Source: a bacterium
GTDB lineage: Bacteria; Orphanbacterota; Orphanbacteria; Orphanbacterales; Orphanbacteraceae
NCBI GenBank assembly: GCA_025782575.1
Contig: JALGYY010000009.1
Span: 235,906-299,905, forward strand
Length of the DNA: 64,000 nucleotides
Reading direction: 5' to 3'
Position 1 is the first letter of the stretch; each line of letters starts with the position of its first letter. The notes below the pieces were generated by a model. The model had not been told where the DNA came from. It made no database searches and was given only the letters and a program-made list of their open reading frames with translations. Shown here piece by piece: positions 18,969-64,000 of the stretch. The translations under genes and the position numbers were made by a program.

Positions 18969-19215
18969 GCCGGGCGATTCTCCCCGTTACGTGCTCCTCC
19001 TCCCGAGGAGCCGCTGCGGGATTCCGAATGTCGTCCCTCGCCGGCTCGTTCGGCCGGCCCATTTAGTTCCGGAAGTTCCGGGGACACAATACTTAACTCC
19101 CACGCCCCGTTTAGCAGAGTTAAGTATTGTGTCCCCGGAACTAAACGGCCCCAGCCGGCCTCGTCTCGCCAATTCTCCCGGGAGGAGGAGCACGCAACAG
19201 GGAGAATCGCCCGGC
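18969..19215. repeat. Nested palindromic element, copy A (outer unit)
   Basis: Outer arms: a locus-specific stem of ~26 bp (GCCGGGCGATTCTCCC then C/T-GTT-A/G-CGTG) closes the element and continues into the shared core CTCCTCCCGAGGAGCCGCTG on the left and CCGGCCTCGTCTCGCCAATT, then CTCCCGGGAGGAGG, on the right. Arms differ at only a few positions across ~40 nt. The interior contains the second palindrome at 19075-19141. It lies between the convergent SDR gene and the TPR gene (3' end 19237). No ORF in it looks real. The stretch 18806-19236 otherwise holds only the candidate small RNA and its promoter. Confidence 0.85.
19075..19141. repeat. Inner GGGGACACAATA palindrome, copy A
   Basis: A perfect 25-bp stem: arms 19075-19099 and 19117-19141 (GTTCCGGGGACACAATACTT and onward) with a 17-nt loop. 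A second, partial copy of the head (TTTAGTTCCGG) precedes the 5' arm and pairs with CCGGAACTAAA at the 3' end. It is nearly identical to the copy at 63939-64000 and related to 41895-41983. Confidence 0.9.
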
Positions 19216-19236
19216 CCTCGCAATGCCATAGGCCGT

Positions 19237-21138
19237 TCAGTCGCGGTGCAGCTGTACGGGGTAAGGGTTCCTCCGGTTTTTTCGAGCCCGCGTGATCGCC
19301 TCCTGGATGATCGGCACCCCCGTTTTAGCTGGATCGCCATAACTCCGGTAGTTCAAATATTCCTCATAGGCGGTTATGGCGAGGTCGAGGCTGCCTCTGC
19401 TCTCGAGAGCCCGGCCGAGTGCAGCAAACGCATCGGGGAGTACCGGGGGAAAGTCGAGAAGGGACTCTCCCCGCTCCACGACTGTTTCCAGTTCCTGAAT
19501 TGCGCGGGCCGCCTGATCAGCCCCCAGATAGGCGAGCCCCAGATAGTACCGATTCCTGACGGTATCGCTGATTCTGACAGCCCGCCGCAGGGGGGGAACA
19601 GCTTCCCATCCCGACTGGATCCGAAGGAAGTAGAGACCTTCAACAAATGGAGCTCGCGCCGGGTGATGGCCGATTGCTTCTAGTTCAAGCCTTTTGGCGG
19701 AAACTGCGCCTCGATCCTCGAATCGGGCGGCTACGATGCCTTCCAGAAACGGTATGAGGCCGGGGTCCGCGCTGGCCAGAAACTGGGATTCCTCATGGAA
19801 TCGCAGGTCTGCCGCTTCATAAGCCGCCTCCCTCGGTTCGTCGGCTTCCAGCAGGGCCCAGACGAGGCGGGCTGTCAGATCGAGGACCGCCTCCTGGTTT
19901 CCGAGCCGGTGTGCCTCCTCCCGGCCCCGTTTCAGCTCGATCACCGCTTCGCCATAAAATCCCCTGGCCAGGTGAAGAGCTGCTCTCGCGGCAGCGTACT
20001 GATAGTAGGCGGTCCATCCGTGCGCGAGCCCGGATGGCGGGTGGGAGAGAAGAAGCGCGGCGTCTTCCGGAAATCCCTCACTGTAATCGATCGACGCGAG
20101 GCCGATCCGGGCGAGAGCATCACCCCCCGAAAGCTCGTCAGCACGGTGGAACTCCTCGCGGGCCATATCGAGATAGCCGGCCCGGAGAGCAAAATCGCCC
20201 AACAGACGGTGAGGCCTCGGATCGAGTGATCGAAGCCGGATGGCCGCCCGAAGCTGCTCAGCCGCCCCACGGAAATCGCCCTCTTCGGCTCTCATTCTGG
20301 CTACCTGAACGTGGGTGTCGAAGCGGAGGGGAAATTGTGACTCGAGACGGTCGATCGCCTCGGTCCTGGCCCGCGAGTTTCCCGCGATTGCAAGAATCCG
20401 CGCTTGATGGGCGGCTCTTTCGAGTGGCGCGAGCCGGAGCGAATCCGTTTCAGCGAGCAGCTTCCGGCCGCGTGCCGGGTACTCTCCGTCGGCCAGACGA
20501 TACCCGAGCTCGGCCTTCGCCCCCTCGTGGCTCCCTCTGTTCCACGCCTCTTCCAGATCCCCTAGAGAACCGGTGGCCACACCTCTGGCGAAAAGCTCCT
20601 CCGCCTGGAGATCGTAGAGAGGAAACGACCGCTCTTCACCAGCAGTCCACCCGAACCGGACGATCGCCGAATCCGCCCACGCCTGAGCCGTCTTTCCGAG
20701 TGAGTCGAGAGGGACAGGGGGGAGCAGGGCGACCCAGATCGAGTCGAACGGGGTGGCCGACCCATAGAGGTTGACGAAGACACCCTCTCGCCCGGTCTCG
20801 AGAGCCGCGACAAGAATGTAATCGAGCTGTGAGGATCGCCCTTCGCTTCGGAGGAAGCTGCCTGAACCCCCCTCCACCGCACCCTCGCCATGGCTCACGA
20901 TGACGTGAGCGAGGTTGGCTGATTTCCGATCGGGAAGAGTGACCGGCTCGAAAGGGGTTCTCCTGCAATCGAGGGCCCTCTCGAAAAGCATCCTCACTGC
21001 AGCCGGGTACGGAAAGTCCCGGGGAGGTGCGGTAAAAATCGAAACCCTTGGCGGCCGTTCGTGATTGCCCCCCCACGCCAGTGAGGCGGGGACCACCAGG
21101 CAGGAGGCGACGAGAACGTAGCAAAGAAACCTGTTCAT
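19237..21138 (-). CDS. Secreted TPR-repeat protein
   Basis: A ~633-residue exported protein. The start at 21138 is chosen because it opens a signal peptide (MNRFLCYVLVASCLVVPASLAWG); the frame continues up to 21300 without signal character. The N-terminal ~150 residues are an unassigned domain (VSIFTAPPRDFPYPAAVRML...AHVIVSHGEGAVEGG). From ~190 on it is tetratricopeptide-type helical hairpins (EEGDFRGAAEQLRAAIRLRSLDPRPHRLLGDFALRAGYLDMAREEFHRA; RNRYYLGLAYLGADQAARAIQELETVVERG; ESRGSLDLAITAYEEYLNYRS). Such proteins serve as periplasmic scaffolds; no partner is evident. It is divergent from the metal-transport operon and only ~165 bp separate the starts. Confidence 0.8.
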   Translation of the reverse strand: MNRFLCYVLVASCLVVPASLAWGGNHERPPRVSIFTAPPRDFPYPAAVRMLFERALDCRRTPFEPVTLPDRKSANLAHVIVSHGEGAVEGGSGSFLRSEGRSSQLDYILVAALETGREGVFVNLYGSATPFDSIWVALLPPVPLDSLGKTAQAWADSAIVRFGWTAGEERSFPLYDLQAEELFARGVATGSLGDLEEAWNRGSHEGAKAELGYRLADGEYPARGRKLLAETDSLRLAPLERAAHQARILAIAGNSRARTEAIDRLESQFPLRFDTHVQVARMRAEEGDFRGAAEQLRAAIRLRSLDPRPHRLLGDFALRAGYLDMAREEFHRADELSGGDALARIGLASIDYSEGFPEDAALLLSHPPSGLAHGWTAYYQYAAARAALHLARGFYGEAVIELKRGREEAHRLGNQEAVLDLTARLVWALLEADEPREAAYEAADLRFHEESQFLASADPGLIPFLEGIVAARFEDRGAVSAKRLELEAIGHHPARAPFVEGLYFLRIQSGWEAVPPLRRAVRISDTVRNRYYLGLAYLGADQAARAIQELETVVERGESLLDFPPVLPDAFAALGRALESRGSLDLAITAYEEYLNYRSYGDPAKTGVPIIQEAITRARKNRRNPYPVQLHRD

Positions 21139-21163
21139 CAGATTCTGGTCCCCATTCCCCCTC

Positions 21164-21192
21164 TTGACAGTCACCCGAGGCATTTCTACTTT
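21164..21192 (+). promoter_or_regulatory. Possible promoter of the permease/SPFH operon
   Basis: TTGACA at 21164-21169 (perfect -35), 17-nt spacer, TACTTT at 21187-21192 (weak -10), about 110 nt upstream of the permease start in the divergent intergenic region. The long leader and the poor -10 leave room for an activator, which would suit a metal-responsive operon, but no regulator gene is adjacent. Confidence 0.4.
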
Positions 21193-21302
21193 ATTAGAAG
21201 CTGACTCCGATGATAACCCCCTCCGGGGATTCGGAAAGGATCTTGTTGGACCGATACTCAGGATGAGGGGGAAACGATGAGATTCACCAAAAGGATCCAT
21301 AC

Positions 21303-23474
21303 ATGAGCGCCCTTATTGGCTTTCTTGGCGAATTCGCCCAGGAAACTCTCTCCATTCTCTACGAGAGCGGGCTGTTCATTCTATTCGGGTTCTTCCTGGC
21401 CGGCCTGTTGCAGGTCTATCTGAGAACAGATCGTCTGATCCCGTTTCTGGGAGGTCGGAACTTGAAGGCGGTGATCAATGCCGCCCTTCTCGGTGCACCG
21501 CTTCCTCTCTGTTCCTGCGGCGTTGTACCGACCGCTGTGGCGCTTCGACAGAAAGGGGCGAGCCGGGAAGCGACGATGTCGTTTCTAATTTCCACGCCCG
21601 AGACAGGTGTGGATTCCATCTCAATCACCTACGGACTACTCGGACCTTTCTTTGCCATTGTACGGCCGATCGTCGCCATCCTGACCGCTGTGGTAGCCGG
21701 CTTCCTGCACATGCTCTTCGGAGAAGATGTGAGTGCCTCGAAGGATGTCAGGAATGCCGAGAGCGCCGAGGATCAGTGTGCCGACTGCGAGATAGAACCG
21801 GGCGTCGCTCATCACGAAGCGCCGGTGCCGGCGGTGGTTCCTCATGCGACCCATGGGGACCGGCTTCGAAGCGCGATGGAGCATGGATTCATTCGACTTT
21901 TTGATGAACTGGCGTTCTGGTTTCTCTTCGGCATTCTCTTGACCGGTTTTCTAACGGCCATACTTCCCGATCAGTTCTTCTCCGATACGCTCGGCACCGG
22001 GCTTCTTTCCATGATCGTGGTGATCCTGCTCGGCGTTCCGCTCTACATGTGCGCATCGAGCTCGACTCCTGTGGCAGTCGCATTTCTCATCAAGGGCTTG
22101 AGCCCGGGTGCGGCGCTCGTCTTTCTACTTACCGGGCCGGCCACCAACGCCGCGACTCTCTCCGTAGTGGGGAAGGCGTTCGGCGGACGATTCCTGAAGA
22201 TCTATCTCGGCTCCATCGTCGGTGTTTCGCTGGCGGCTGGACTGTTTGTCAATGCAGTCTATGAGTGGAGTCCGAGCATGGCCGGAACTGTCGAAGAGGG
22301 GACGATGGGATTCCTTTTTCGAACACTCAAGGGGATCGGTCTTCTCCTCTTTCTCTTTCTCTCCTGGAAGAGTCTGCGGCGCACCGGTCTGAGGCCCGGC
22401 TTTCGAGAGCTTCGCGAAAATCTCGCCGCCGCTACCGCCCCGATCAAGCGGATTCGTCCTTCCCAGTTGTTGACAACCATGGCCGGTCGTCTGACTCTTG
22501 GCGCACTGATCGTTTCCTATCTTCTCTCCGGATTCTACTCCGTCGCCCCTGGAGAGGTGGGAATAGAGCGCCACTTCGGGCGTGTGACCAGGACGGCCAT
22601 CAATCCCGGCCTTCACTGGTGTTATCCCTGGCCTGTCGGAAAGGAAACGACCTGCTCGACCGAAGGCTTCATCAAACTGGAAATCGGATTTCGTGGCGGC
22701 GATCCGGTAGTCAGTCCCCTAGATTACTACAGACCGATTCCAAGCGAAGAACAAGGGAAGATTGATCGCATTCCGGAGGAGTCCCTCTTCCTGACGGGGG
22801 ATGAAAATCTAGTCGATGTACTTGCATCGGCGCACTACAGGGTGAATGATCCGGTACGATTCATCTTCGGGCTGGAGAATGGGGATGATGCCGTCCGTTC
22901 CGCACTCCTCTGGTCAATGGTCGACGAGTTCGTCCACCGGCCGCTGGATCTGATCTTTACGACGGATCGAATCGCGATAGAAGAGAGCGTGCGGAAAACA
23001 GCAAACGGGCTTCTGGAGCGCACGGGCACAGGCCTTACGGTCGAGGAGTTCCGGCTTCAAAGCGTACACAGCCCGATGGAAGTGCACTACGATTTTCGCG
23101 ACGTCGCCTCGTCTATCGAAGACAGGTCCCGCAAGATTTACGAAGCAAAACTTTACGGAGAGGAAGTGGTTCACAAGGCTCGCGGTGATTCGGCAAGCGT
23201 AGTGGCCGGTGCCGAAGGAGACCGGGAGACGAGACTCGCAGTCGCAAGCGGAGAGGCCGGACGCTTCCGGCTTCTGGAAATGGCGGCGAGGATCGAGCGG
23301 TCCGGCACAAAGCTTCGTCTCTATCTGGAAACCATGGAGCGAACCCTTCCACGTGTACGTAAACTCGTCCGGCCTGATCCCGGAGCGGTTGATCAATTCG
23401 AAATCTGGTTCCAGTCCGGGGATACCCCGGTGATTCCCGAACTGCTCGGCAACAAAGAGGGAGATCTCCGATGA
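21303..23474 (+). CDS. SO_0444-family Cu/Zn-efflux-type permease fused to an SPFH (HflK-like) domain
   Basis: A 723-residue fusion. Residues 1-~350 are a DUF318/SO_0444-type permease: two membrane bundles, each with the conserved core (GAPLPLCSCGVVPTAVALRQKGAS...FLISTPETGVDSI near 60-110; GVPLYMCASSSTPVAVAFLIKGLSPGAALVFLLTGPATNAATL near 243-280), separated by a hydrophilic loop with a possible metal site (CADCE near 160, HHE, H). A further helix near 395-405 (GALIVSYLLSGFYSV) leads to a C-terminal band-7/SPFH domain (APGEVGIERHFGRVTRTAINPGLHWCYPWPVGKE, then coiled coil). Free-standing permeases of this family stop before the SPFH part. The 3' end overlaps the next gene by ATGA. The family gives metal efflux as the likely role; coupling to SPFH is inference. 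Confidence 0.88.
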   Translation: MSALIGFLGEFAQETLSILYESGLFILFGFFLAGLLQVYLRTDRLIPFLGGRNLKAVINAALLGAPLPLCSCGVVPTAVALRQKGASREATMSFLISTPETGVDSISITYGLLGPFFAIVRPIVAILTAVVAGFLHMLFGEDVSASKDVRNAESAEDQCADCEIEPGVAHHEAPVPAVVPHATHGDRLRSAMEHGFIRLFDELAFWFLFGILLTGFLTAILPDQFFSDTLGTGLLSMIVVILLGVPLYMCASSSTPVAVAFLIKGLSPGAALVFLLTGPATNAATLSVVGKAFGGRFLKIYLGSIVGVSLAAGLFVNAVYEWSPSMAGTVEEGTMGFLFRTLKGIGLLLFLFLSWKSLRRTGLRPGFRELRENLAAATAPIKRIRPSQLLTTMAGRLTLGALIVSYLLSGFYSVAPGEVGIERHFGRVTRTAINPGLHWCYPWPVGKETTCSTEGFIKLEIGFRGGDPVVSPLDYYRPIPSEEQGKIDRIPEESLFLTGDENLVDVLASAHYRVNDPVRFIFGLENGDDAVRSALLWSMVDEFVHRPLDLIFTTDRIAIEESVRKTANGLLERTGTGLTVEEFRLQSVHSPMEVHYDFRDVASSIEDRSRKIYEAKLYGEEVVHKARGDSASVVAGAEGDRETRLAVASGEAGRFRLLEMAARIERSGTKLRLYLETMERTLPRVRKLVRPDPGAVDQFEIWFQSGDTPVIPELLGNKEGDLR

Positions 23475-24364
23475 GTCGGATGAAACGGTGGATCGTACCG
23501 GGGCTCGCCATTCTCGCGGTGCTCTATGTACTCTCCTGCTTTTATGTGGTGGACGTAACGGAGTATGCCGTGGTGACGCGATTCGGAAACCCTGTCGCGA
23601 TCCATACCGAACCCGGGCTCCTGTTCGACCTGCTGAAGCCGATCGAATCGATCACGCGAATCGACGCGCGCCTCCTGATACTCGATCTCGAACCGGCCGA
23701 ATTTCTGACGGAGGATAAGAAGAATGTAATCGCGAGCGGTTACGCCATGTGGCGAGTGGAGGATCCGCTCATGTATCTTCAGCGGGTTTACAGCCGGATG
23801 GGCGCCGAGTCGAGAATCAGCGACATACTCTCATCGGAAACGGGAGCCGCGCTCGGTACGGTACCCTTTTCGGCGCTGGTTTCAGCGGACACCAGCGAAA
23901 TTCGACTGGCTGAAGTCGTTCGGTCGATCCGGGACCGGAGCGCCGAGAGAATTCTACGGGACTACGGTGTCCGGCTCGAAGACTTCCGGCTGAAGAGATT
24001 CACGTTTCCCAATCAGAACAAAGAATCGGTCTTTCAGCGGATGCGTGCCGAACGACAGAGAATCGCCAAGCGATATCGATCGGAAGGGGAAGAGGAAGCG
24101 ACCAAGATCCGGGCGGAAGCGGACAGGGAGAGTGTCGAGATTCTCGCGAAGGCAACAAGGCGATCGGAGGAGCTTCGGGGTGAAGGGGAAGCGGAAGCGA
24201 CCCGGATTTACGCTGAGGCCATACGACAGGACCCCGATTTCTATCGGTTCATGCGCACCCTGGAATCCTATGAAAAGATTGTGGACGGCAAGATGACAGT
24301 TGTGATTCCGAGCGATTCCGATCTCATGAGACTCCTGATGCATGGACCGGGAGGTGCGCGGTGA
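23471..24364 (+). CDS. SPFH protein, HflC-like
   Basis: A 297-residue membrane-anchored band-7 protein. One N-terminal helix (WIVPGLAILAVLYVLSCFYVV), then the SPFH core (DVTEYAVVTRFGNPVAIHTEPGLLFDLLKPIESITRID), the HflC-type LLILDLEPAEFLTEDKKNVIASGYAMWRVEDPLMYL, and a charged coiled coil (RQRIAKRYRSEGEEEATKIRAEADRESVEILA). HflC with HflK normally encases and tunes the FtsH protease. Here the gene is locked by 4-nt overlaps between the permease-SPFH fusion and another HflK-like gene, suggesting a dedicated complex for this transporter rather than the housekeeping HflKC. Confidence 0.9.
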   Translation: MSRMKRWIVPGLAILAVLYVLSCFYVVDVTEYAVVTRFGNPVAIHTEPGLLFDLLKPIESITRIDARLLILDLEPAEFLTEDKKNVIASGYAMWRVEDPLMYLQRVYSRMGAESRISDILSSETGAALGTVPFSALVSADTSEIRLAEVVRSIRDRSAERILRDYGVRLEDFRLKRFTFPNQNKESVFQRMRAERQRIAKRYRSEGEEEATKIRAEADRESVEILAKATRRSEELRGEGEAEATRIYAEAIRQDPDFYRFMRTLESYEKIVDGKMTVVIPSDSDLMRLLMHGPGGAR

Positions 24365-25281
24365 TCAGCAGACCCGCAGAACTTCCCTGGGTGCGGATCG
24401 GCTTGATCGCCGCCCTTCTGATCTGGCTCGGTTCGGGGATCTACACGGTAGCTCGGGATGAACTTGGTGTGGTCCGGCTGTTTGGGAAACCGTGGCAGAC
24501 GAGAGTGCCGCCTGGCATGCACTTCGCCCCTCCCTGGCCGTTTGCCAGGACAGAAGTCGTTCGCACTACTTCCGCTTATCAGATGAGCGTGGGGTTCAAG
24601 ATAGCCGACTCAGTGAAAGGAAAGCCTCCCACACCGGCTGAGACTGAGTTTCTAACCGGCGACACCAATATCATTACACTCGAGATGATTCTGCAATACG
24701 TTATCGACAATCCGTCACGGCTCCTCTTCGGCATTGAGGACCCGCACTTTCTCGTGAGACGGGCGGCCGAAACGACGGCTACGGCGATTCTCGCCCACAC
24801 TCCGGTGGATGTGGCCCTTACAACCGGGCGCGCGCCATTTCTCGAGGCCGTGCGTGCCGATACACAGGAGCTGCTTCGCGATTATGGCGCCGGAATCCTT
24901 CTCGTTTCGGCTACTCTTCGGAAGATCGAGCCGCCGGCCGAGGTGATCGACGCTTTCCAGGACGTCCAGAACGCCAAGTCCGACCGTGAACGAAGCATCA
25001 ACGAAGCGATTGGATACGCGAATGAGACTCTGCCGCGATCCAGAGGAAAAGGGGAGGCCCGCGTATCCGCAGCAAGAGCAGCAAAGATCAGCCGGATCGA
25101 AATTGCCCGGGGAGACGCGAACCGGATTTCTAATATGATCACAGAGTATCATGCGGCACCGACCGGCGTGAAGAGTCGTATGTATCTTGAAGTCGCGGAA
25201 GAAGTGCTGGGTATGGCGACGATCTACGTGATCGACGGTGGTGACGGGCGGAGGCCGATGGGCCTCAAGCTGATCGAGTAA
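24361..25281 (+). CDS. SPFH protein, HflK-like
   Basis: A 306-residue band-7 protein starting at GTG that overlaps the HflC-like stop (GTGA). N-terminal helix (WVRIGLIAALLIWLGSGIYTV), then ARDELGVVRLFGKPWQTRVPPGMHFAPPWPFARTEVVRT, closely parallel to the SPFH half of the permease fusion; LTGDTNIITLEMILQYVIDNPSRLLFGIEDP is the HflK-type segment. The C-terminal coiled coil has NAKSDRERSINEAIGYANETLPRSRGKGEA, the HflK landmark. With the fusion protein this makes two HflK-like and one HflC-like chains in a single operon. Confidence 0.9.
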   Translation: MISRPAELPWVRIGLIAALLIWLGSGIYTVARDELGVVRLFGKPWQTRVPPGMHFAPPWPFARTEVVRTTSAYQMSVGFKIADSVKGKPPTPAETEFLTGDTNIITLEMILQYVIDNPSRLLFGIEDPHFLVRRAAETTATAILAHTPVDVALTTGRAPFLEAVRADTQELLRDYGAGILLVSATLRKIEPPAEVIDAFQDVQNAKSDRERSINEAIGYANETLPRSRGKGEARVSAARAAKISRIEIARGDANRISNMITEYHAAPTGVKSRMYLEVAEEVLGMATIYVIDGGDGRRPMGLKLIE

Positions 25282-25283
25282 TC

Positions 25284-26018
25284 GTGCAGACGACTTTGGG
25301 AATATCGATTTATCTGGGGCTGATCACGGGCATTTCTCTACTCGGCGGGTGGGCGCCGCTCATCAGGCCCTGGTCGAGGGAGAAGCTGACGCTACTCGTT
25401 TCGGCCGGTGCCGGCGTGCTGCTCGGAGCCTGTTTCATCCACATGCTGCCCCATATTGTCGAGGGGATCGGAGACGCCGCAGGGGTGACGATACTCGCCG
25501 GGTTTCTGGCGATTTTCGTACTCGAAAAGTTTTTTCTGGTCGATCCCTGTGAGGAGATTGACTGCCACATTCATAAATTCGGGCTTGCCGCGTTTTTAGG
25601 GATTTCGTTTCACAGTCTGATCGACGGCATTGCCGTTGGTACGAGCCTCATTCTCCCGAACCTCGCTGCTCCCGTATTCTTCGCCATTGCCGTGCATAAA
25701 ATCCCCGCGGCATTCTCTCTCTGCTCGATCCTGCTTCTCGCCGGCTATTCCCGCGGACGGGCGGCTCTCATGATTCTGGGTTTCTCGCTCACCACTCCGA
25801 TCGGGGCGATTCTCGCTTTTCTGTTTCTCCGCGGACTCGCCCCGCAATATCTTTCGATGGCGATCGGCATCAGCGCCGGCTCCTTTCTCGCGATCGCTAC
25901 ATCCGATCTCCTCCCCCAGCTCCACAAAGAAGGGGTGAATCGCTTTGCCACACTCCTCTTTCTGCTTGTCGGCGTGGGTGTGATGATGATCGCGGGGATG
26001 GTCTTTCAGACCCACTGA
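25284..26018 (+). CDS. ZIP family divalent-metal transporter
   Basis: A 244-residue polytopic membrane protein with about eight helices. The two metal-site helices are present: FHSLIDGIAVGTSL (TM4 type, His/Asp) near residue 110 and AIAVHKIPAAFSLC (TM5 type, HKIP) near 137. A short His/Cys-containing loop (DPCEEIDCHIHK) precedes TM4 and probably gathers metal. GTG start 2 nt after the HflK-like stop, with no room for its own promoter, so it is the last gene of the permease/SPFH operon. ZIPs usually import Zn, Fe or Mn to the cytosol. Pairing with an efflux-type permease suggests homeostatic control or opposite-facing roles. Confidence 0.92.
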   Translation: MQTTLGISIYLGLITGISLLGGWAPLIRPWSREKLTLLVSAGAGVLLGACFIHMLPHIVEGIGDAAGVTILAGFLAIFVLEKFFLVDPCEEIDCHIHKFGLAAFLGISFHSLIDGIAVGTSLILPNLAAPVFFAIAVHKIPAAFSLCSILLLAGYSRGRAALMILGFSLTTPIGAILAFLFLRGLAPQYLSMAIGISAGSFLAIATSDLLPQLHKEGVNRFATLLFLLVGVGVMMIAGMVFQTH

Positions 26019-26059
26019 GAAGTGATGGTGAGAAGCCCGGGCTGTAGCCGGGATTTCGA

Positions 26060-27079
26060 TCAATCGAGAGGGCGAATCCGGGGCTGGGAAAGAAAATAGA
26101 AAAGCGATTCGATCAAGTTTTCGATTTCCGCTTTGGGGTTGTGCGGATTGAACCAGTGGAACGGATTGAAGAGAACTTTCGGGTGAAGCATTTTCAGTCC
26201 CCGACGGCCGATCTCCACCAGCAGGGATCGCGTTCCGAAAACCTCGTATAGATAATCTGTCTCCGTACCCCGTGCCAGAAAGAACGGAAGAAACCGGCCA
26301 AGCTGCTTGGCTTTGTAACCGTAATTCTGTTGCCGGTCGATCATCTCCCGGCAAAGGTTCTTATACCACTCATCTTCGCGGGGCTTTTTCTTGGTACCAC
26401 CATATGGATAGAACAGCCAGCCACCAAACGAGTGAAGCGAAAGGGCGTAGTCGAATCGCGTTTCAAGCAGAAATTCGCGGTAGGCCGACGTTTCCGGTTC
26501 GCTGAACGGACGATACCCGGGATGCCAGATACTCGGCATGATCCGGTGCAGAAAATACTTGCGCGAAAAGAACGCGCTGAAATTGCGGTTGAGATCGACG
26601 CCGTTTCTGTTCAGCCTGGCAAAGTGCCTGCGCCCTTCAGCCAGGTCCTTCTCGACACGGCGATAACCGTCAGGGTTCAAGACGGGGAAGAAGTAGACCT
26701 CCCGGTTCCAGAGGTCACGGTTCTGGCGCATGGCATTGGTGAACCGTTCCAGAAGAGTGACATTCGCCTCTGCGGCGATGAACTCCTGGGCGTGGATGAC
26801 CGACGAGACGAGAAATCGGGGGGGAGGGCCGGTCTTACCACCGGTCCCGGTAACCACACGAAAACCCCAGATCGGTTCGCCCTCTCCGCTTGTCCCGATC
26901 GAGAATGCGGAGACATCCCGGGGGAACCGCTTCACGATCCGGTCGAGCCGGGTCAGAATTTCGCGGTAGGTGTGGTAGTCGCCGTGAACGGACCTGTCGA
27001 TCGATGTCGCGTACTTCTCGTCCTTCAGGACCTTATCTAAATGGCCGCGCCAGCTCGGTTTTGTGGATCGAATTGCCAT
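26060..27079 (-). CDS. M14 family zinc carboxypeptidase
   Basis: A 339-residue metallocarboxypeptidase-like protein. Zinc ligands: H-x-x-E in SVIHAQEFIAAEAN (~95-98) and His in SLHSFGG (~216). NRNGVDLNRNF holds the substrate-binding Asn-Arg, and LLVEIGRRG (~287) supplies the catalytic Glu. No signal peptide is visible, so it may be cytoplasmic or exported by another route. The start at 27079 (ATG with GGAGGG 6 nt upstream) is preferred to the in-frame TTG at 27091. It converges with the ZIP operon; the 41-bp gap contains a small hairpin (CCCGGGCT/AGCCGGG). Confidence 0.9.
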   Translation of the reverse strand: MAIRSTKPSWRGHLDKVLKDEKYATSIDRSVHGDYHTYREILTRLDRIVKRFPRDVSAFSIGTSGEGEPIWGFRVVTGTGGKTGPPPRFLVSSVIHAQEFIAAEANVTLLERFTNAMRQNRDLWNREVYFFPVLNPDGYRRVEKDLAEGRRHFARLNRNGVDLNRNFSAFFSRKYFLHRIMPSIWHPGYRPFSEPETSAYREFLLETRFDYALSLHSFGGWLFYPYGGTKKKPREDEWYKNLCREMIDRQQNYGYKAKQLGRFLPFFLARGTETDYLYEVFGTRSLLVEIGRRGLKMLHPKVLFNPFHWFNPHNPKAEIENLIESLFYFLSQPRIRPLD

Positions 27080-27261
27080 ATTTCCCTCCAATGGATGGTA
27101 AGCGAGAGTCGGTGGGGTGTAAAGGGCGCCGGTTGCTTAGTATGGGATGAACTTTCTCCCATCTGCCCGGTTCAATAGAATAGTCTGTCCGAAAGATCGA
27201 AGCGGCATGAGAACGGCTGGCCTGCTCCTGATCAGGGCGGCTGCTGAAGAAGGAGTTCCTG

Positions 27262-27813
27262 ATGAGCATACGAAATATGACCCTGGGTGCTTTGGCCTGC
27301 CTGCTGCTGGCGGCCTCACCCGCGAACGCCATACTGCATGTCAGCCTGGAGGATCCGGAAAGCAACAGCTGGGTAGTCCTCTATACCTTTTCCGAGAGCA
27401 GGGAAGGGGCCGATTCTCTCGCGATTTTCCCGTATGACTTCCCGATCGAGATCATCAAGGCGGAGGCGCTCAAAGGGGGAAGGCCGCTCAAGTACGACGA
27501 GATCAATGAAGGTAAAGAGGGTAAGCCCAAGTATTCTATCCGCTTTCCAAACCCGGTGGTGGGAGGCGAGAAATTCCGATTTCGGGTAGAAGCGAGAATG
27601 ACCGACCCGAAGTCCTTCTTTCTAGACTCCAGAAAGCTGACGTTCATTTATCAGACGGCGCACGATGTTTTCGTCAGCCTGCCGCCGAATTTTCTGCCGG
27701 TTTATACCGATGAGCCGATGGAAATTAAACAGGAGAAGGGCCGGGTCGTACTGGAGAGCCGCGGAGGGGAGCGCCGCCCGGTGATCATTTTTGCGAACAG
27801 ATGTTCTGAATAG
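27262..27813 (+). CDS. Secreted protein of unknown function
   Basis: A 183-residue protein with a clear signal peptide (RNMTLGALACLLLAASPANA) and AAGGAGTTCCTG before the ATG. The mature part looks all-beta (HVSLEDPESNSWVVLYTFSES; KYSIRFPNPVVGGEKFRFRVEARMTD; LTFIYQTAHDVFVSLPPNF), with a single Cys near the end. I do not recognise a family. It resembles accessory beta-sandwich proteins that bind at the cell surface, but this is impression only. It is convergent with the radical SAM pair (13-bp gap). Confidence 0.7.
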   Translation: MSIRNMTLGALACLLLAASPANAILHVSLEDPESNSWVVLYTFSESREGADSLAIFPYDFPIEIIKAEALKGGRPLKYDEINEGKEGKPKYSIRFPNPVVGGEKFRFRVEARMTDPKSFFLDSRKLTFIYQTAHDVFVSLPPNFLPVYTDEPMEIKQEKGRVVLESRGGERRPVIIFANRCSE

Positions 27814-27826
27814 GAATCAGCCGGTG

Positions 27827-30600: not shown

Positions 30601-30698
30601 TGGCGCCTCCAGCGTTCAAAAAATGCCGCCCAGCAGATGAGCGGCGGGTGGTGGGCTCCGGGTTTTCGGCCTCGCAATTCATCTTGAGGACAGACTTA

Positions 30699-30727
30699 AT
30701 GATACTGAAAAACAGCCCTCCTGTCAA
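30699..30727 (-). promoter_or_regulatory. Consensus promoter of the two-gene radical SAM operon
   Basis: Minus strand: perfect TTGACA (30727-30722), 17-nt spacer, TATCAT (30704-30699, 5/6), 99 nt upstream of the B12/radical SAM start. It is divergent from the nfuA promoter 75 nt away. Confidence 0.65.
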
Positions 30728-30800
30728 TCGGGAGCAGATGACGCCGGACTCAACAATCCATTGGGATACAAGGATTTGCGGATTTTTTTAAGAACCCGCC

Positions 30801-30829
30801 TTGAGAGTGTCCCGAGTGGTCGTTATACT
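30801..30829 (+). promoter_or_regulatory. Consensus-like promoter of nfuA
   Basis: TTGAGA (30801-30806), 17-nt spacer, TATACT (30824-30829); 30 nt upstream of the ATG with AAGGAGGGG before it. Good match and position. Confidence 0.6.
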
Positions 30830-30858
30830 ATGAATAAGAGTATCCAAGGAGGGGAGTT

Positions 30859-34167: not shown

Positions 34168-34180
34168 GATTACTTCTCCT

Positions 34181-41839: not shown

Positions 41840-42054
41840 CCTCGAGCCCCCGAGCTATGCGGCCCTCCTCCCGGGAGCCGCTGCGAGACTCCTGAATTCT
41901 GGGGACACAATAAATTCTGGGGACACAATACGCAATTCCTGCAGAACGGAACCGAGGGAATTGCGTATTGTGTCCCCAGAATTTTGTAGGAACCCGCCGG
42001 CCTCGTCTCCCTGATTCTCCCCGGAGGAGGATCGCATAGCTCGGGGGCTCGGGG
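41840..42054. repeat. Nested palindromic element, copy B (outer unit)
   Basis: Outer stem: CCTCGAGCCCCCGAGCTATG plus CG at 41840-41861 pairs with 42033-42054 with one mismatch; this stem sequence is not shared with the other copies. It closes the conserved core: CCTCCTCCCGGGAGCCGCTG then CGAGACTCC on the left, CCGGCCTCGTCTCCCTGATT then CTCCCCGGAGGAGG on the right. It contains the inner palindrome at 41895-41983. It sits between convergent hemY and the cohesin-bearing gene. The 316-nt gap 41824-42139 holds only this and the terminator at 42075. Confidence 0.85.
41895..41983. repeat. Inner GGGGACACAATA palindrome, copy B
   Basis: A perfect 27-bp stem (41913-41939 with 41957-41983) with a 17-nt loop, preceded by an exact 18-nt tandem copy of the head (AATTCTGGGGACACAATA at 41895-41912 and 41913-41930). 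The distal stem reads CGCAATTCC/GGAATTGCG instead of CTTAACTC/GAGTTAAG in copies A and D: paired on both sides although the sequence changed. Confidence 0.9.
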
Positions 42055-52463: not shown

Positions 52464-52692
52464 GAGCCGCCTCCGTTCCGATTGGTACACCGATTGCGAG
52501 CACATGGACGATCTCGCCCGCTTCATGGCAAGCGCGAGCGAAACAAAATGGTACGCGCTGCTCCAATCGGTTGATCCAAAACACGTTATCACTCTCCCTT
52601 TTCCCGGGCCCCATCGGCACACCTTATGCAACTCGCCTGATCCGTCGGTAGGGATACCGAGCCTTCTAAACCATCAAGGAAAGGGGAAGGGA

Positions 52693-53877: not shown

Positions 53878-53916
53878 GACACGTCACCTCTTGATCATTC
53901 TGCATGGACCATGTGT

Positions 53917-53948
53917 GGGGGCGCCCGTCGGGCGTCCCCGCTTTCTTG
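53917..53948 (+). terminator. Rho-independent terminator after the lipoprotein gene
   Basis: GGGGGCGCCC (53917-53926), loop GTC, GGGCGTCCCC (53930-53939): 10-bp stem with one G-T wobble, followed by GCTTTCTTG. It lies 40 nt after the stop codon. Confidence 0.75.
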
Positions 53949-53989
53949 TGGAATGATCCGCCCTGTTGTCTCTTCGACAGAGGGGAGGT

Positions 53990-56611: not shown

Positions 56612-56639
56612 ACGGTACATCGTAATTCAATAGACCTCC

Positions 56640-56764
56640 CCCCGCCTGCTGTCCCATGTGATCCTCCTCCCGAGGAGCCGCTGCGGGACTCCTCTCGTCG
56701 CCCCGACCCGGCCTCGTCTCCCTAATTCTCCCGGGAAGAGGATCACATGGGACAGCAGGCGGGG
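56640..56764. repeat. Palindromic element, copy C (outer unit without inner insert)
   Basis: Arms 56640-56672 and 56732-56764 pair over 33 bp with one mismatch. The first 22-23 bp (CCCCGCCTGCTGTCCCATGT plus GAT) are unique to this locus; the rest is the core CCTCCTCCCGAGGAGCCGCT, then GCGGGACTCC, and on the right CCGGCCTCGTCTCCCTAATT, then CTCCCGGGAAGAGG. Unlike copies A, B and D there is no GGGGACACAATA palindrome; left and right cores are joined by ~20 nt. It fills the convergent gap between the DUF2961 gene and the debranching gene. Confidence 0.88.
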
Positions 56765-56776
56765 ACCGGGTACTAC

Positions 56777-58765
56777 TCAGTCCCGAGCCGTCATCTTCCA
56801 GGCCCGCAGAATCTCAGCTACACTCCATGCTTGAGCAGTGCATCCTCTAGGTGTAAAGGGTGCGTCGCCGTCAAAGATCTCGCTTACGCTCCCGAGGCCA
56901 TGCTCATGCAGATTGCCGATGAGAGGCATGAAGAACGAACGGGCCAGTTCGGGATCGCCGTTCACGCGGAGATGAGCGACAGCGAACGGCCCGAGCAGCC
57001 AGCCCCAGACAGTCCCCTGATGATAGGCGGCGTCCCGGGTTCTCCTGTCGCCTCCGTATCGCCCGATGTAAGCCGGATCTCTCGGTGAGAGGCTTCTGAG
57101 ACCATGAGGGGTGAGGAGATCCCTCTGGCAGACGTCGACCACGGCGCTTTGCATGTTCCCGTCAAGCGGGCTGTGGGGAAGAGATACGGCGAAGATCTGA
57201 TTCGGCCTGATCGCCGGATCGTCCCGGTCCGGTCCGTCGATCACATCGAAGAGACATCCCGAATCATTGTTCCAGTAACGCACGAATGATTCGCGTACCT
57301 CTGCCGCCGCTTCGTCGTAGGGAGCAGGAGATTCGCCGAGGGGTGCGGCGAAGTCACCCATGGTACGGAGGGCGTTGAACCAGAGAGCATTGATCTCCAC
57401 AGGCTTCCCGATTCGGGGCGTGACCACCCAATCCTCTACTTTGGCATCCATCCATGTCAGCTGAACGCCCGCTTCTCCTGAATGGAGCAATCCATCGTTC
57501 GGATCGACGTGAATGTTGTGTCTTGTCCCTCGAAAGTGGGCGTCGACAATCTCCTTCAATGTCGGCCAGAGAGAAGAGAGGAGGTCGAGATCCTCGGTTG
57601 CATCGAGATAGCTCGCGATCGCTTCGAAATACCAGAGCGTCCCGTCGACCGTGTTGTATTCAGGTTCTTCGCCTAGATCCGGGAACCGGTTCGGGATCAT
57701 CCCTTCGCTCACGTGGCGGCCGAATGTCTCGAGAACTTTTTTTGCTACGTCGCTCCTCCCCGTACAGAGCGCGATTCCGGATAGGCTGATCATCGTGTCC
57801 CGTCCCCAGTCTGAAAACCAGGGATAACCGGCGATGACCGACCGGCCGTTCGGATCGTCCGCGCCGGTTCGATCGACGATGAACTGGTCGGCGGCGAGGG
57901 CGAGTTGACCGAGCTGGGGAGCGAGGGGCGAACCGCCGATCGTCGATGCCGCGGCCCGCAGGATGTTACTGTCATGATTGCGCCGCCGTTCGAGTCCCTT
58001 TTCCCCATCTTTCGATGCGCCCGGGTCAATCGTGGCGACCAGCGTGACAGGCCGGCCGGGCTCAATCGGGATCCGAATCCTGCCCGCCTTCAGGTGATCT
58101 TCCCGTTCCCGCAGGCCGCGATACTCCTCTACACATAGAAAATAATCTGAAACGTGCTTCGAAAGCGCTTCCCAATCCCCTCCTGATGCCAGCATGCGGA
58201 CGACCGGCCCCTTTTCTTTGTGCTCCATCCGGAGACTCCCTTTGTCGACCTCCGTGTCGATACGGGGCTTTCCGGTCGTGACATCGTGATAGTCTCTCCG
58301 ATTGGCGAGCACATCGACATGAAGATCGGCAGCGGTTCCTTCGATCATCTCGTAATGGATGTAAGTGGTATTCGCTCCCTGTTCCATCCAGATTCTCTTC
58401 TCAATAATTATAGTTCCTATCTGAAACGTCCAGACAGGAATCGATTTTTCGAGCCGAAAACGGATGAGCGATTCATAGCCCCTAGGGGTGATGGACCCGT
58501 CAGTTTTCCGGTCACCGAAGAGAGGTGTTCGGATACCGCCCGTTTCGAGTGTCTCGTCGATCTTGGGAATCAGGAGAGTGCGTCCGACGGGGGGCGAGAG
58601 AGCGGCGATCAGGATGCCATGGTACCGACGTGTCAGAATGCCGGCGACAGTTCCCATGGCGAACCCTCCGATTCCATTCGTGACGAGCCACTCCAGGCGG
58701 CTCGATCGCGAAAAATCGACGCAGACTTCGGCATCAAAATCGATCAGGGGGGCATACTCATTCAT
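56777..58765 (-). CDS. Amylo-alpha-1,6-glucosidase/glycogen-debranching-enzyme-type protein
   Basis: A 662-residue cytoplasmic enzyme of the GDE family. N-terminal domain (GDE_N: EWLVTNGIGGFAMGTVAGILTRRYHGILIAALSPPVGRTLLIPKIDETLE) and the GDE_C (alpha/alpha)6 barrel, GYPWFSDWGRDTMISLSGIAL with the catalytic Asp of WGRDT, then YNTVDGTLWYFEAIASYL and LTWMDAKVEDWVVTPRIGKPVEINALWFNAL (second acidic residue), GTVWGWLLGPFAVAHLR. It hydrolyses alpha-1,6 branch points in glycogen-like polymers. No glycogen synthase or phosphorylase is in the window. Convergent with the DUF2961 gene. Confidence 0.93.
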   Translation of the reverse strand: MNEYAPLIDFDAEVCVDFSRSSRLEWLVTNGIGGFAMGTVAGILTRRYHGILIAALSPPVGRTLLIPKIDETLETGGIRTPLFGDRKTDGSITPRGYESLIRFRLEKSIPVWTFQIGTIIIEKRIWMEQGANTTYIHYEMIEGTAADLHVDVLANRRDYHDVTTGKPRIDTEVDKGSLRMEHKEKGPVVRMLASGGDWEALSKHVSDYFLCVEEYRGLREREDHLKAGRIRIPIEPGRPVTLVATIDPGASKDGEKGLERRRNHDSNILRAAASTIGGSPLAPQLGQLALAADQFIVDRTGADDPNGRSVIAGYPWFSDWGRDTMISLSGIALCTGRSDVAKKVLETFGRHVSEGMIPNRFPDLGEEPEYNTVDGTLWYFEAIASYLDATEDLDLLSSLWPTLKEIVDAHFRGTRHNIHVDPNDGLLHSGEAGVQLTWMDAKVEDWVVTPRIGKPVEINALWFNALRTMGDFAAPLGESPAPYDEAAAEVRESFVRYWNNDSGCLFDVIDGPDRDDPAIRPNQIFAVSLPHSPLDGNMQSAVVDVCQRDLLTPHGLRSLSPRDPAYIGRYGGDRRTRDAAYHQGTVWGWLLGPFAVAHLRVNGDPELARSFFMPLIGNLHEHGLGSVSEIFDGDAPFTPRGCTAQAWSVAEILRAWKMTARD

Positions 58766-58839
58766 ACGGCGGATCGTACACGAGGTGGGGCGAGGGGCAA
58801 GGCCGTTCTCCAGACGTTCGGCCCGGCCTTGCGGGGCGG

Positions 58840-59175
58840 TTACACTGGGGCTAAAATGACAGGGCTCCGGGAATCGACGCTATGGGCCGGCGAAGTTTCA
58901 GCGAGACTCTTCTCCCCGTTCACCTCTCCCATCTTGGTCGCCAGATTCTCGGCGTTGCGCGTGGCCAGCTCCTTGCGACCGGAACGTGTGGCGCAATGTG
59001 TGAGAAGGTCGTCAGTTGTCTCGATCTTGGCCCCTGAAAGTTTTTCACGGTAAGCTGGCACGATTCCCTCGATCTCGTCGATATTGTAGCTCGTATCATT
59101 CACCTGTGTTTCGAGAGCGAGCTCCGTCCCATCGGTCAATGACGAGATCCGGGCATCAAGTGAGGGGGCTCGCAC
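58840..59175 (-). CDS. Short DUF4332-like helix-hairpin-helix protein
   Basis: A 111-residue protein whose centre (YNIDEIEGIVPAYREKLSGAKIETTDDLLTHCATRSGRKELATRN) follows the DUF4332/HhH pattern (IEGIGPxYAxKLxxAGIxTTDxLLxxxATxxGRxELA). The normal sequel with KWVNxADL is missing and the C terminus is short, so this may be a half-domain or a decayed copy. GTG start at 59175 overlaps the 3' end of the upstream cysteine-cluster gene by 20 nt; other starts are possible. Role unknown, nucleic-acid or protein contact is the usual HhH use. Confidence 0.6.
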   Translation of the reverse strand: MRAPSLDARISSLTDGTELALETQVNDTSYNIDEIEGIVPAYREKLSGAKIETTDDLLTHCATRSGRKELATRNAENLATKMGEVNGEKSLAETSPAHSVDSRSPVILAPV

Positions 59176-59539
59176 CGGGGCAGAATCGAGCCAGCCCGTT
59201 CCAGGCCCGTTTGGATTTCAAGTATTCCGGCCAGAAGGGGAACTGGCGGCATTGTTCCGGCCTGGCCGGGTGCAGCGAGCAGCGAGGTTTCTGATAGAAC
59301 GGGCACGGGCTCTTTCTTGTCACCTGGATCCAGGAACCTTCGTCGCTGTCTCCATAGAGCGATCGAAACTCTGCGACGGGCATGGAAAGATGCCGCGCAG
59401 CCCGGAGTTGGTCCTCTCGCGTGAACAGGACCCAGCCGGGACGTTCGCAGCAATGGCCGCATGCTGTGCAAGAGAATTCGAGATCGTGCTCTTTGAACAA
59501 TCGAATCACTTTCCGTAAAACCGGGCCGAACAGCGCCAC
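59156..59539 (-). CDS. YkgJ-family cysteine-cluster protein
   Basis: A 127-residue protein with the family cluster C-T-A-C-G-H-C-C (FSCTACGHCCERPG) near residue 24, then SPCPFYQKPRCSLHPARPEQCRQFPFWP and FCPG, the full set of Cys that may bind an Fe-S cluster or zinc. Family members are common and functionally uncharacterised. The ATG at 59539 opens it, and it overlaps the HhH-like gene at its 3' end by 20 nt, so they are likely co-transcribed. Confidence 0.9.
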   Translation of the reverse strand: MALFGPVLRKVIRLFKEHDLEFSCTACGHCCERPGWVLFTREDQLRAARHLSMPVAEFRSLYGDSDEGSWIQVTRKSPCPFYQKPRCSLHPARPEQCRQFPFWPEYLKSKRAWNGLARFCPGASPLT

Positions 59540-59711
59540 ACAAGAGTAGTCGGCTCCCGGCCGGGGTTCAACTGGAGGATACGCCGGCTCACCTGCGAGA
59601 AATGGGAGCGTCCGGAATGCAGAGAGGTGTTACTGTGATAGGTGTCTCTGGGAGGCGCCGGAATTTTTCGGTGACCCCGGGCCGAAACAACGGACTAAGC
59701 AAGGGAGATGT

Positions 59712-60488
59712 ATGATCACCTGGACCGTACTCGGAAGCGGGACGCACTTCGCGAGCGCTACGCGCGGCTCTTCCGGTCACCTTCTCAGGAGCGGCGATAC
59801 CGAAATTCTCGTCGACTGCGGACCGGGTTCGTTTCATGGGATCGCGAAGGCGGGGTCAGCGCCCGAGAATCTACGGGCCTGTCTCATCAGTCATCTTCAC
59901 CCCGATCACGTATCCGACTTGCTGCCATTACTTTTCCGGTTGAGAAACGAGGCGAAGAGCAGCGGTGAGCGTCGGTTCCTGGTCGCCGGCCCTATGGGGA
60001 TCGCTGACTATCTGGACGATCTCGCTGATCTCCACGCTCCTTATCTGGACCACTCCGATTTCCATGTGGAGGTGGAAGAGGGCAATTCGGGGGCGCTCAA
60101 GATCGATCACCTCATAATCGACCGCGCCCCCATGGCCCATGGAGTCCCCACGGTAGCCTACGGTTTCACGGGCGAGGGGGAGGGGCGGATCGTTTACAGC
60201 GGGGATACGGGACGCTCAGCCGAACTGGTTCGATTCGCCCAGGGGGCCGAACTGCTCGTGATCGAATCGAGTTTCCCCAATGGAAAAGAAGAGCCGTTTC
60301 ATCTGACACCGGCTGAAGCGGCTCAAACAGCGGCGGACGCCCGGGTAGGCGGGGTGATCCTTGTCCATTTGAATCCGGAGTGCGACGACGGGGATCTTGT
60401 CGAGCAGTGCGGTGATTCTTTTCATGGTCTCATGATGATCGGAACCGATCTCATGACACATGAAGTGGATGGGTCGGGCCGGGAATGA
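59712..60488 (+). CDS. MBL-fold metallo-hydrolase (RNase Z-like)
   Basis: A 258-residue binuclear metallo-beta-lactamase-fold enzyme. Motif I TVLGSGTHFASATRGSSGHLL, motif II H-x-H-x-D-H in ISHLHPDHVSDLLPLLF, the distal Asp in GRIVYSGDTGRSAELVRFA, and the last His in ILVHLNPECDD. The order and the ~250-residue size resemble tRNase Z and YycJ/arylsulfatase-like relatives, but the exosite of true RNase Z is not recognised. AGGGAG precedes the ATG. Its stop overlaps the next gene by 4 nt. Confidence 0.9.
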   Translation: MITWTVLGSGTHFASATRGSSGHLLRSGDTEILVDCGPGSFHGIAKAGSAPENLRACLISHLHPDHVSDLLPLLFRLRNEAKSSGERRFLVAGPMGIADYLDDLADLHAPYLDHSDFHVEVEEGNSGALKIDHLIIDRAPMAHGVPTVAYGFTGEGEGRIVYSGDTGRSAELVRFAQGAELLVIESSFPNGKEEPFHLTPAEAAQTAADARVGGVILVHLNPECDDGDLVEQCGDSFHGLMMIGTDLMTHEVDGSGRE

Positions 60489-61477
60489 GCGCGATTCGAA
60501 TGGGCCTGATCGGCACCGGCCGTCACGGAGTTCGTTACGCCAATCATCTCTTGTCCGGGGATGTTCCCGGGGCGAAACTGGCGGCGGTCAGTCGCCGGGA
60601 TCATGAGGCCGGCCATGCCCAGGCATCGGATTGGGGGGTCGCCTATCACACTGACATTCAGTCCATGGCTACGGATGCGGGAATCGATGCTCTTCTAATA
60701 GTCTCCGGGGCGGCCCATCACCCGGAGGGGGTGTGCGCGGCACTCGCCTGTAACAAGCCCGTACTTGTGGAAAAGCCGCTGGCAGTTGATCTGGCCGGAT
60801 GTGACGTGATTCTTCAGGCCGCGGAGCGTTCGGATGCCCCTGTTATGGTGGCCCAGACGACTCGCTATGAGGGCCCCATGCTGGGCCTGTTCCATTCCCT
60901 TGACCAAATCGGCGTGATCAGGCAGGTGAACTTCCTGCTTCGATCCGAGGATCGAACCCACGGGGATGACGGTCTCTTCCAGCGCAGGCTCGATGATGGA
61001 GGGGCGGTTCTGGATTCAGGCGTCCACTACTTCGATCTCCTCCCACGCCTCGTCGGACCGATCGAAAAGGTCTGGTGCGACCGGCTCTTCATTCGCGAAA
61101 CTCCGATCGATGACGGTTACACCGCCATTCTGGTCTCCCGGTCGGGAGCGAGGGTCGTAATCTCCATGGGACGCTGGGGGAATTCCCGAAATGAGGTGAT
61201 CGAAGTGGCCGGTGACGACGGCCTGCTGCTCCTGTCACGGACACCCTCTTCCCTGGCAATCGTGAAGGGCCGGGAGAAGATAGAGGTGCCGTTTCCGGAT
61301 GTCCCCGGTACGCTGATCCCCACGCTTCTTGATTTCGAGAGGGTCTGCCGTGGCGAGACCAAACCGCCGATCACCCTGGCGGATGGCCGCGCCGCCGTCC
61401 TCCTCGCCCAGGCGTGCTGCCAGAGTGACGGTCACTGGCTGTCAGTGAAAGATGGTGAGATCAATCCAATCGATTAG
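60485..61477 (+). CDS. Gfo/Idh/MocA-family oxidoreductase
   Basis: A 330-residue NAD(P)-dependent sugar- or inositol-type dehydrogenase. Rossmann motif IRMGLIGTGRHGVRYANHLL (GxGxxG) and the diagnostic EKP in KPVLVEKPLAVDL, followed by the C-terminal alpha/beta domain with DSGVHYFDLLPRLVG (the G-x-H-x-x-D/catalytic His region). Coupled by ATGA to the MBL gene. Substrate not readable. Confidence 0.92.
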   Translation: MSAIRMGLIGTGRHGVRYANHLLSGDVPGAKLAAVSRRDHEAGHAQASDWGVAYHTDIQSMATDAGIDALLIVSGAAHHPEGVCAALACNKPVLVEKPLAVDLAGCDVILQAAERSDAPVMVAQTTRYEGPMLGLFHSLDQIGVIRQVNFLLRSEDRTHGDDGLFQRRLDDGGAVLDSGVHYFDLLPRLVGPIEKVWCDRLFIRETPIDDGYTAILVSRSGARVVISMGRWGNSRNEVIEVAGDDGLLLLSRTPSSLAIVKGREKIEVPFPDVPGTLIPTLLDFERVCRGETKPPITLADGRAAVLLAQACCQSDGHWLSVKDGEINPID

Positions 61478-61587
61478 GACCCTGTCAAAATGGCAGTTCT
61501 AATCGGGGGTTCGTTTCTCGCCGTAATTCGATTGTCATCGTAACCAATTGAAAACAAATCAGTTAAGATAGTAATGGTCTTTCGGCA

Positions 61588-61627
61588 CGTGATTTGCTCT
61601 CAAAGCCTCTGTATTTTGGAAATCACG
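61588..61627. promoter_or_regulatory. Inverted repeat in the groES leader
   Basis: CGTGATTT (61588-61595) and AAATCACG (61620-61627), 8-bp perfect arms 24 nt apart, in an AT-rich stretch 100-140 nt before groES. It is not the CIRCE element (TTAGCACTC-N9-GAGTGCTAA), which is absent. Possible regulator site or leader hairpin. Confidence 0.35.
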
Positions 61628-61667
61628 AACGATTCGATTGAATTGGCCTTAGATTTCCCACCAGTTG

Positions 61668-61685
61668 CTCGCCCCCCGGGGCGAG
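61668..61685 (+). promoter_or_regulatory. GC hairpin just upstream of groES
   Basis: CTCGCCCC-CC-GGGGCGAG, 8-bp perfect stem with a 2-nt centre, 41 nt before the groES ATG. In an otherwise AT-rich leader this may be a stable 5'-UTR stem or an operator. Confidence 0.35.
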
Positions 61686-61726
61686 ATTAGAAGAAAACCC
61701 TGATTGTGTTGAAAGGAGCAATGGGG

Positions 61727-63683
<1,957 letters not shown>

Positions 63684-63690
63684 TTCCCGC

Positions 63691-63785
63691 TGCGGCTTGA
63701 AGCCGCACGTGAACTATAGACCTGTCTTCGGGCAGGCATAGAGAGATGCGGCCCGCTCTTCGGAGCGGGCCGTTCTCGTCTATAA
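63691..63785 (+). terminator. Triple hairpin after groEL
   Basis: Three successive stems: TGCGGC-TTGAA-GCCGCA (63691-63707), CCTGTC-TTCG-GGCAGG (63721-63736) and CGGCCCGCTC-TTCG-GAGCGGGCCG (63749-63772); the last two have UUCG tetraloops, and the third is a perfect 10-bp stem followed by TTCTCGTCTAT. The array probably combines RNA 3'-end protection with termination. Confidence 0.75.
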
Positions 63786-63866
63786 CTGAAAAGTTGACCG
63801 ATGGGTAGCTATACCAGGCGGGGCCTATGTGGTTTTGGAAGGCTCCCCCCGATCGGGGCGCTCCCC

Positions 63867-64000
63867 GGGTAAGTCATTCTCCTCCCGGGAGAATTAGGGA
63901 GACGAGGCCGGATTGGGACTTATTTAGTTCCGGGGGAAGTTCCGGGGACACAATACTTAACTCCCACGCCCCGTTTGGCGGAGTTAAGTATTGTGTCCCC
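63867..64000. repeat. Nested palindromic element, copy D (reverse orientation, cut by window end)
   Basis: Starts with the right-hand core in reverse complement (TTCTCCTCCCGGGAGAATTA, then GGGAGACGAGGCCGG) at ~63878, preceded by the presumed locus-specific stem GGGTAAGTCA, and continues into the inner palindrome. The other half lies beyond the window. The region 63786-63866 has a small palindrome (CCCCGATCGGGG) and nothing else I recognise. Confidence 0.8.
63939..64000. repeat. Inner GGGGACACAATA palindrome, copy D (partial)
   Basis: 5' arm 63939-63963 (GTTCCGGGGACACAATACTT onward), 17-nt loop 63964-63980 and the first 20 nt of the 3' arm. The head is preceded by an imperfect tandem copy (TTAGTTCCGGGGGA). 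Differs from copy A only in the loop (TTTGGCG instead of TTTAGCA). Confidence 0.88.

Follow-up and report, generated by a model that had tools for sequence, protein, structure and literature searches.

Dispersed palindromic repeats with paired and often copy-specific outer stems

Mobile DNA normally has the same ends in all its copies. The window analysed here, a 64,000-nucleotide stretch (G000:C11:235906-299905) of a 4.88-Mb bacterial assembly (G000, the window genome), holds dispersed, short, non-coding repeats in which a conserved core is closed by an outer stem. The two arms of this stem pair with each other, while in many copies their sequence is private to the site. But how can the ends of a repeat family differ between copies and still pair? 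Where does the stem come from, and what holds its two arms together? The explanation that we lean towards is a MITE/REP-like mobile hairpin whose arms change together, probably through template switching plus selection for folding.

The element in the window and in its genome

A sequence-only reading of the window had placed three elements with a common core at 18969, 41840 and 56640, and re-reading of the sequence and an inverted-repeat scan bear this out. All three lie on the forward strand. Copy 1 starts with a left arm (GCCGGGCGATTCTCCCCGTTACGTGCTCCTCCTCCCG, 18969-19005), 35 of whose 37 positions pair with the right arm at 19179-19215. Between the arms lie a left core (AGGAGCCGCTGCGGGATTCC...CGGCCGGCCC, 19006-19062) common to the other copies, a nested REP-like hairpin found by the inverted-repeat scan (AGTTCCGGGGACACAATACTTAACTC and its inverse, 19074-19142, arms 19074-19099 and 19117-19142) and a right core (CCGGCCTCGTCTCGCCAATTCTCC, 19155-19178) that fits the right-core pattern with 0 mismatches; 0.00 such matches are expected by chance. 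Copy 2 is closed by a 29 bp stem with two mismatches, formed by a left arm (CGAGCCCCCGAGCTATGCGGCCCTCCTCC, 41843-41871) and a right arm (42023-42051). It holds a REP-like hairpin at 41895-41984 (main arms 41912-41939 and 41957-41984, the left one partly duplicated at 41895-41912) and a match to the right core at 41997-42020. In copy 3 the left arm (CCCCGCCTGCTGTCCCATGTGATCCTC, 56640-56666) pairs at 27 of 27 positions with the right arm (56738-56764); the left core (CTCCTCCCGAGGAGCCGCTGCGGGACTCC..., 56664-56697) and the right core (56708-56731) are present, and the nested apical hairpin (GGGGACACAATAC...) of copies 1 and 2 is absent. A fourth copy, on the reverse strand at 63850-64000, consists of the right half only, with REP-like hairpin (63944-64000), right core (63888-63911) and right arm, and it is cut by the contig end, beyond which its left half would lie.

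Thus, copies 1 to 3 have a conserved left core (CTCCTCCCGAGGAGCCGCTG and variants) and a conserved right core (CCGGCCTCGTCTCSCYRATTCTCC), and beyond the inner ~13 bp their stem sequence is site-specific. The stems had been described as perfectly paired over 22-26 bp. They are indeed paired, but over 27-37 bp, and perfectly so in copy 3 only, as copies 1 and 2 have two mismatches each. Outside the elements, inverted repeats of score 18 or more are absent from the window, and the shuffled window gives none of such strength. The elements do not look like intrinsic terminators, as no T-run follows either end of the three copies. The side hairpins suggested earlier agree with a predicted multi-branched or rod-like fold, but a strict cloverleaf is not predicted.

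Genome-wide core searches return 22 matches to the left core and 25 to the right core, that is, about 25 copies, which measure about 125-260 bp with the stem included. Two subtypes can be told apart: type A usually has the GGGGACACAATAC apical hairpin, and type B (n = 6) has another one. The sequence-only reading hinged on most copies having paired flanks. In 14 intact copies, with the register picked per copy from seven offsets and truncated or indel-bearing copies left out, pairing reaches 90.6% over the 28 bp adjoining the core and drops to 39% if each arm is combined with that of another copy. In this register, each position has 3.5 pair types on average. The closing stem is lacking in copies with a one-sided truncation (L028, L029). 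Stem length clusters at about 27-43 bp. Over the full core, most type-B copies are 81-92% identical, and their outer arms are no more similar than shuffled sequence. The claim that the stem is different at every site therefore holds for the three window copies and for many others in the genome, but not for about 9-10 type-A copies with a common longer family stem (roughly GCCTCTCTCCACRCCGGTCGACCCTCCTCCCG), so that a private stem is not a feature of each copy. The inner ~13 bp of the stem (GATCCTCCTCCCG-like) are more widely common than this longer stem.

Copies of the window family are commoner between convergent genes (10 of 24, compared with 20 of 112 intergenic regions, using simple greedy ORF calls), and some arms abut stop codons. 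L046 (G000:C20:46682-46935) lies between two convergent genes, and its arms start at their TAG stop codons; its left arm contains an 18-nt unit twice and its right arm once. An association of all copies with convergent genes was considered and, with the simple ORF caller, shrank to this modest enrichment in G000 and to none in G004. The exact right core has no match in ~85,000 species genomes, a collection to which its own genome possibly does not belong. Searched against Rfam 15, the elements of this family and of the sister family described below have no match, and only neighbouring tRNA and SRP RNA genes score above gathering thresholds.

Nested in the outer element, the apical hairpin of type A represents a repeat of its own, of a known kind (REP). 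It occurs at 43 strict sites in G000, and GGGGACACAATAC hairpins lie on both sides of a RAYT-like ORF (G000:C5:51960-52625; L117:961-1626) that scores 65.5 bits with NCBIfam REP_Tyr_transpos, below the cut-off of 80. The position of these hairpins thus puts RAYT-type REPs at the apex of many G000 copies. No paper on the REP motif of the window copies came up in the literature search. Several G000 REP hairpins (L083, L135, L019/L045, L106, L100) have part of an arm duplicated, for example AGTTCTGGGG or TTAATTCTGGGGACA, with a truncation point that differs per copy yet is symmetric between arms; L100 has three duplicated units on one side and two on the other.

A sister-genus family and its empty sites

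A scan of same-family genomes for long palindromes led to a second family, present in G003, G004 and G006. Tens of matches each come from G004 and G006 (the latter a MAG labelled Gemmatimonadetes bacterium DeMMO4_6, the former congeneric with it). Its element is predicted to be a rod-like hairpin of ~184 nt (fold z -12.6) with an outer stem of 22-25 bp, clustering at 24 bp in all three genomes. A profile search detected no homology to the window family, so the insertion behaviour of the latter is argued by analogy. No sister-family core lies near the RAYT-like genes of G003 and G004.

The flanks of 16 G006 copies were mapped onto G004 and, with two earlier cases, give at least 11 sites occupied in G006 and empty in G004, orthology here meaning correspondence between two MAGs of one genus. 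The empty sites hold no palindrome, and the occupied ones hold a complete element with both arms. It follows that in the sister family the stem travels with the element. Most of the 11 sites have TA on both sides (AA in L263), although the right-hand dinucleotide is often TT or TC, and a target duplication is read with some caution for that reason. The terminal arms are partly common between copies in G004 and G006 (AGCCTGG...GCACGCG) and differ between copies in G003, as in the window genome.

Some further features of these genomes are worth recording. Four sister copies with private stems (L196, L226, L288, L259) lie within about 10 nt of the 3' ends of RNA genes, namely SRP RNA, tRNA-Gln (twice, orthologous) and tRNA-Leu. 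A role as conserved partner of the SRP RNA was dropped, as sister genomes have no element at that place. At three places where G006 has the element (L201, L195, L238), G004 has another insert of ~215 nt (L324, L325, L318), possibly from another repeat family with the same target. Five G004 copies (L203, L206, L209, L212, L215) have their apex replaced by a nearly identical extra hairpin (CAGGGACCCGTGGCGCGCTTGGATCTTGTCG...), which parallels the REP nested in the window family, and L253 and L259 of G006 carry a similar insert. In G002, from another sister genus, a unique palindrome with a 25 bp stem and a 50-nt interior stands directly after a stop codon (L177:4483-4582).

Arms that change together

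Within a copy the two arms are more alike than between copies, with identities of 0.80 versus 0.39 in G003, 0.83 versus 0.63 in G004 and 0.88 versus 0.75 in G006 (permutation p<1/2000). In 51 sister copies of the canonical type, 75 changes are mirrored in both arms, where 16 would be expected with independent arms, and another 75 are one-sided; these counts come from related copies and not from independent events. An alignment of 34 diverse copies, in which covariation was judged by counting double changes on a named structure, shows such changes at 21 of 22 outer-stem pairs, and 95% of its cells are paired, compared with 42% or less when partners are slid. The core helices covary as well, with double changes at 28 of 39 pairs.

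Orthologous copies offer a closer view. L226 (G006) and L288 (G004), both next to the same tRNA-Gln gene, have similar cores, and 5 of 15 inner stem positions have changed in both arms. L259 and L372, by tRNA-Leu, have entirely different stems, each of them paired, and each species has both candidate right arms. This reflects either a rewriting of the left arm or the loss of different parts in the two lineages. Across 65 stems of G003, G004 and G006 that otherwise differ, an A in the left arm opposite a C in the right arm recurs at about one stem position, possibly a conserved G.U on the minus strand.

In the window genome, 13 copies have 19 arm mismatches where about 83 would be expected from the decay of their cores, a comparison that leans towards few mismatches because stem limits were set by best extension, and in which deletions inflate the core figures of L031 and L032. 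L045, L046 and L047 have nearly perfect arms despite cores 7-19% diverged. Passive decay from a perfect stem is thus excluded in several G000 copies. The coupling of the arms is incomplete, as one in two changes in young copies affects a single arm and the canonical stems of L222 and L285 contain unrepaired mismatches.

The earlier proposal that covariation keeps the stem is thus sound as a description of the pattern, in paired arms, mirrored changes and double changes; as to its cause, selection and arm copying are both candidates. Three kinds of observation support copying at the DNA level. The tandem duplications of REP hairpins L083, L135, L019 and L106 (in part L100) are mirrored in both arms. 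Next to the REP, one side of the core has become an inverted copy of the opposite side, perfectly in L018 and L002 and imperfectly in L119. In L254, a flanking dinucleotide was changed so that it mirrors the opposite side.

Origin and upkeep of the stem

What, then, makes and maintains these stems? One idea, raised already by the sequence-only reading, is that the element inserts into the loops of existing long palindromes or terminators, which would supply the private stems. The enrichment between convergent genes and the arms abutting stop codons speak for such sites. However, 400 kb sampled elsewhere in G000 contain no vacant inverted repeat of score 16 or more with a loop of up to 400 nt, a repeat scan of G000 at score 15 or more again finds no vacant long palindrome, and short terminator-like hairpins in the genome reach score 14 at most. 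The scan and the palindrome-free empty sites of the sister family contradict insertion into palindromes, and the window copies have no T-run after their arms; we consider this origin very improbable. Alternatively, the stem could be made from the target, one flank giving rise to an inverted copy of itself across the element at or soon after insertion. This would suit the type-B copies of G000, with their like cores and unrelated stems, and the mirroring of flank or core sequence across the hairpin in L018, L002 and L254. Against it, both arms arrive with the element in the sister family, the near-perfect arms on the diverged cores of L045, L046 and L047 need continuing correction and not one birth event, and stem lengths cluster, at different values in the two families. 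A making of the stem from the target is hence unlikely, although less so than insertion into palindromes. For the window's own family, the creation of palindromes, which the sequence-only reading also proposed, may still play a part.

A stronger contender, which we still regard as the lesser possibility, is selection alone, acting on a structured RNA or on single-stranded DNA recognised by its shape, so that compensatory mutation would leave the helix sequence free and the loops fixed. Invariant residues do lie mostly in internal loops across genera, double changes extend to nearly all outer pairs and most core pairs, and fold energies are far below those of shuffled sequences (z -9 to -16). 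In addition, stem mismatches on the core strand are more often A.C than G.T (48 versus 18, p 0.0003 with kinship ignored), the excess class corresponding to G.T/G.U wobbles on the minus strand; in the window family the same comparison (10 versus 4) is not significant. For both the strand bias and the invariant internal loops, selection acting on a folded strand is a better explanation than copying. Yet point compensation would hardly produce the mirrored tandem duplications or the overwritten cores, no transcript or function is known, and most G006 copies tested are young insertions absent from G004, each of which would have to be selected separately.

We therefore return to the template-switching hairpin. 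As we picture it, the element would be a non-autonomous, non-coding hairpin of MITE/REP-like kind that, when it moves, takes along the two arms of its outer stem as parts of one complete unit; the sister family shows this, and the window family probably behaves likewise. As a pattern, it is shown that the two arms of one copy change together, so that copy lineages end up each with a private stem that pairs well, and that the core, in which neither side is a copy of the opposite one, stays recognisable. The most likely source of the coupling is template switching during replication, in which, with the hairpin folded, one arm would be copied anew using the other as template; selection for the hairpin shape of one folded strand probably adds to it. 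In our judgement both are at work, copying probably having the larger part. This account has its own difficulty: type-B cores 81-92% alike with unrelated stems need either a fast, tract-wise turnover of the stem or a constrained core. More speculatively, and with considerable doubt on our side, what lets the element spread may be its folded DNA or RNA shape, and not its end sequences; any stem that pairs would then do, the loops would be recognised by a protein, and the arms could be rewritten repeatedly.

How does such an element relate to known systems? Bacterial MITEs are described as ending in TA, with terminal repeats common to the copies and with a 2-bp duplication of the target (PMC2229807). 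Like the TA-targeting MITEs RUP, NEMIS/Correia and ERIC, the elements described here are short, non-coding, dispersed and hairpin-forming, and the sister family has TA-flanked insertions at most of its 11 sites, again with a right-hand dinucleotide that is often TT or TC. Those MITEs keep a common terminal repeat and are described as A+T-rich, in contrast to the elements here, which have copy-specific paired arms and are G+C-rich; shared terminal inverted repeats, which a TA-targeting MITE of the IS630/Tc1-mariner type should have, are not found in G000 and G003 in general and occur in part in G004, G006 and the 9-10 type-A copies. REPs and REPINs with their RAYTs (PMC2817692, PMC3116915) are similarly palindromic, intergenic and of high copy number, but the outer element is longer, its stem is private and its two-sided core is conserved. 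Integron attC sites (PMC2727003) are mobile sites recognised as folded single strands, with little sequence but structural conservation, which offers an analogy of working only, as attC belongs to gene cassettes and integrases. The arms of inverted repeats are known to be homogenised by template switching in quasipalindrome correction (PMC8604942, PMC7202029), and palindromes in nematomorph mitochondria evolve in concert, for which template switching has been proposed (PMC6649704). In these cases, as here, one arm would template the other and the arms stay identical while their sequence changes; however, they concern single loci or mitochondrial genes and not the ends of a bacterial mobile family. 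The bacterial repeat reviews examined mention neither "covariation" nor "compensatory", and no bacterial repeat family whose ends are private yet paired was found among the open-access papers searched. The earlier statement that no such class has been described stands to this extent, but the element belongs broadly among MITE/REP-like palindromic repeats.

Finding and classifying mobile DNA normally relies on conserved ends, so that a family with ends that vary but keep pairing would escape sequence-based repeat finders. The sister copies can be placed in ordered states, from the empty site through the new insertion to the shared ortholog. These states are a natural record of how the arms of a bacterial hairpin are homogenised, in which template switching can be tested against structural selection.
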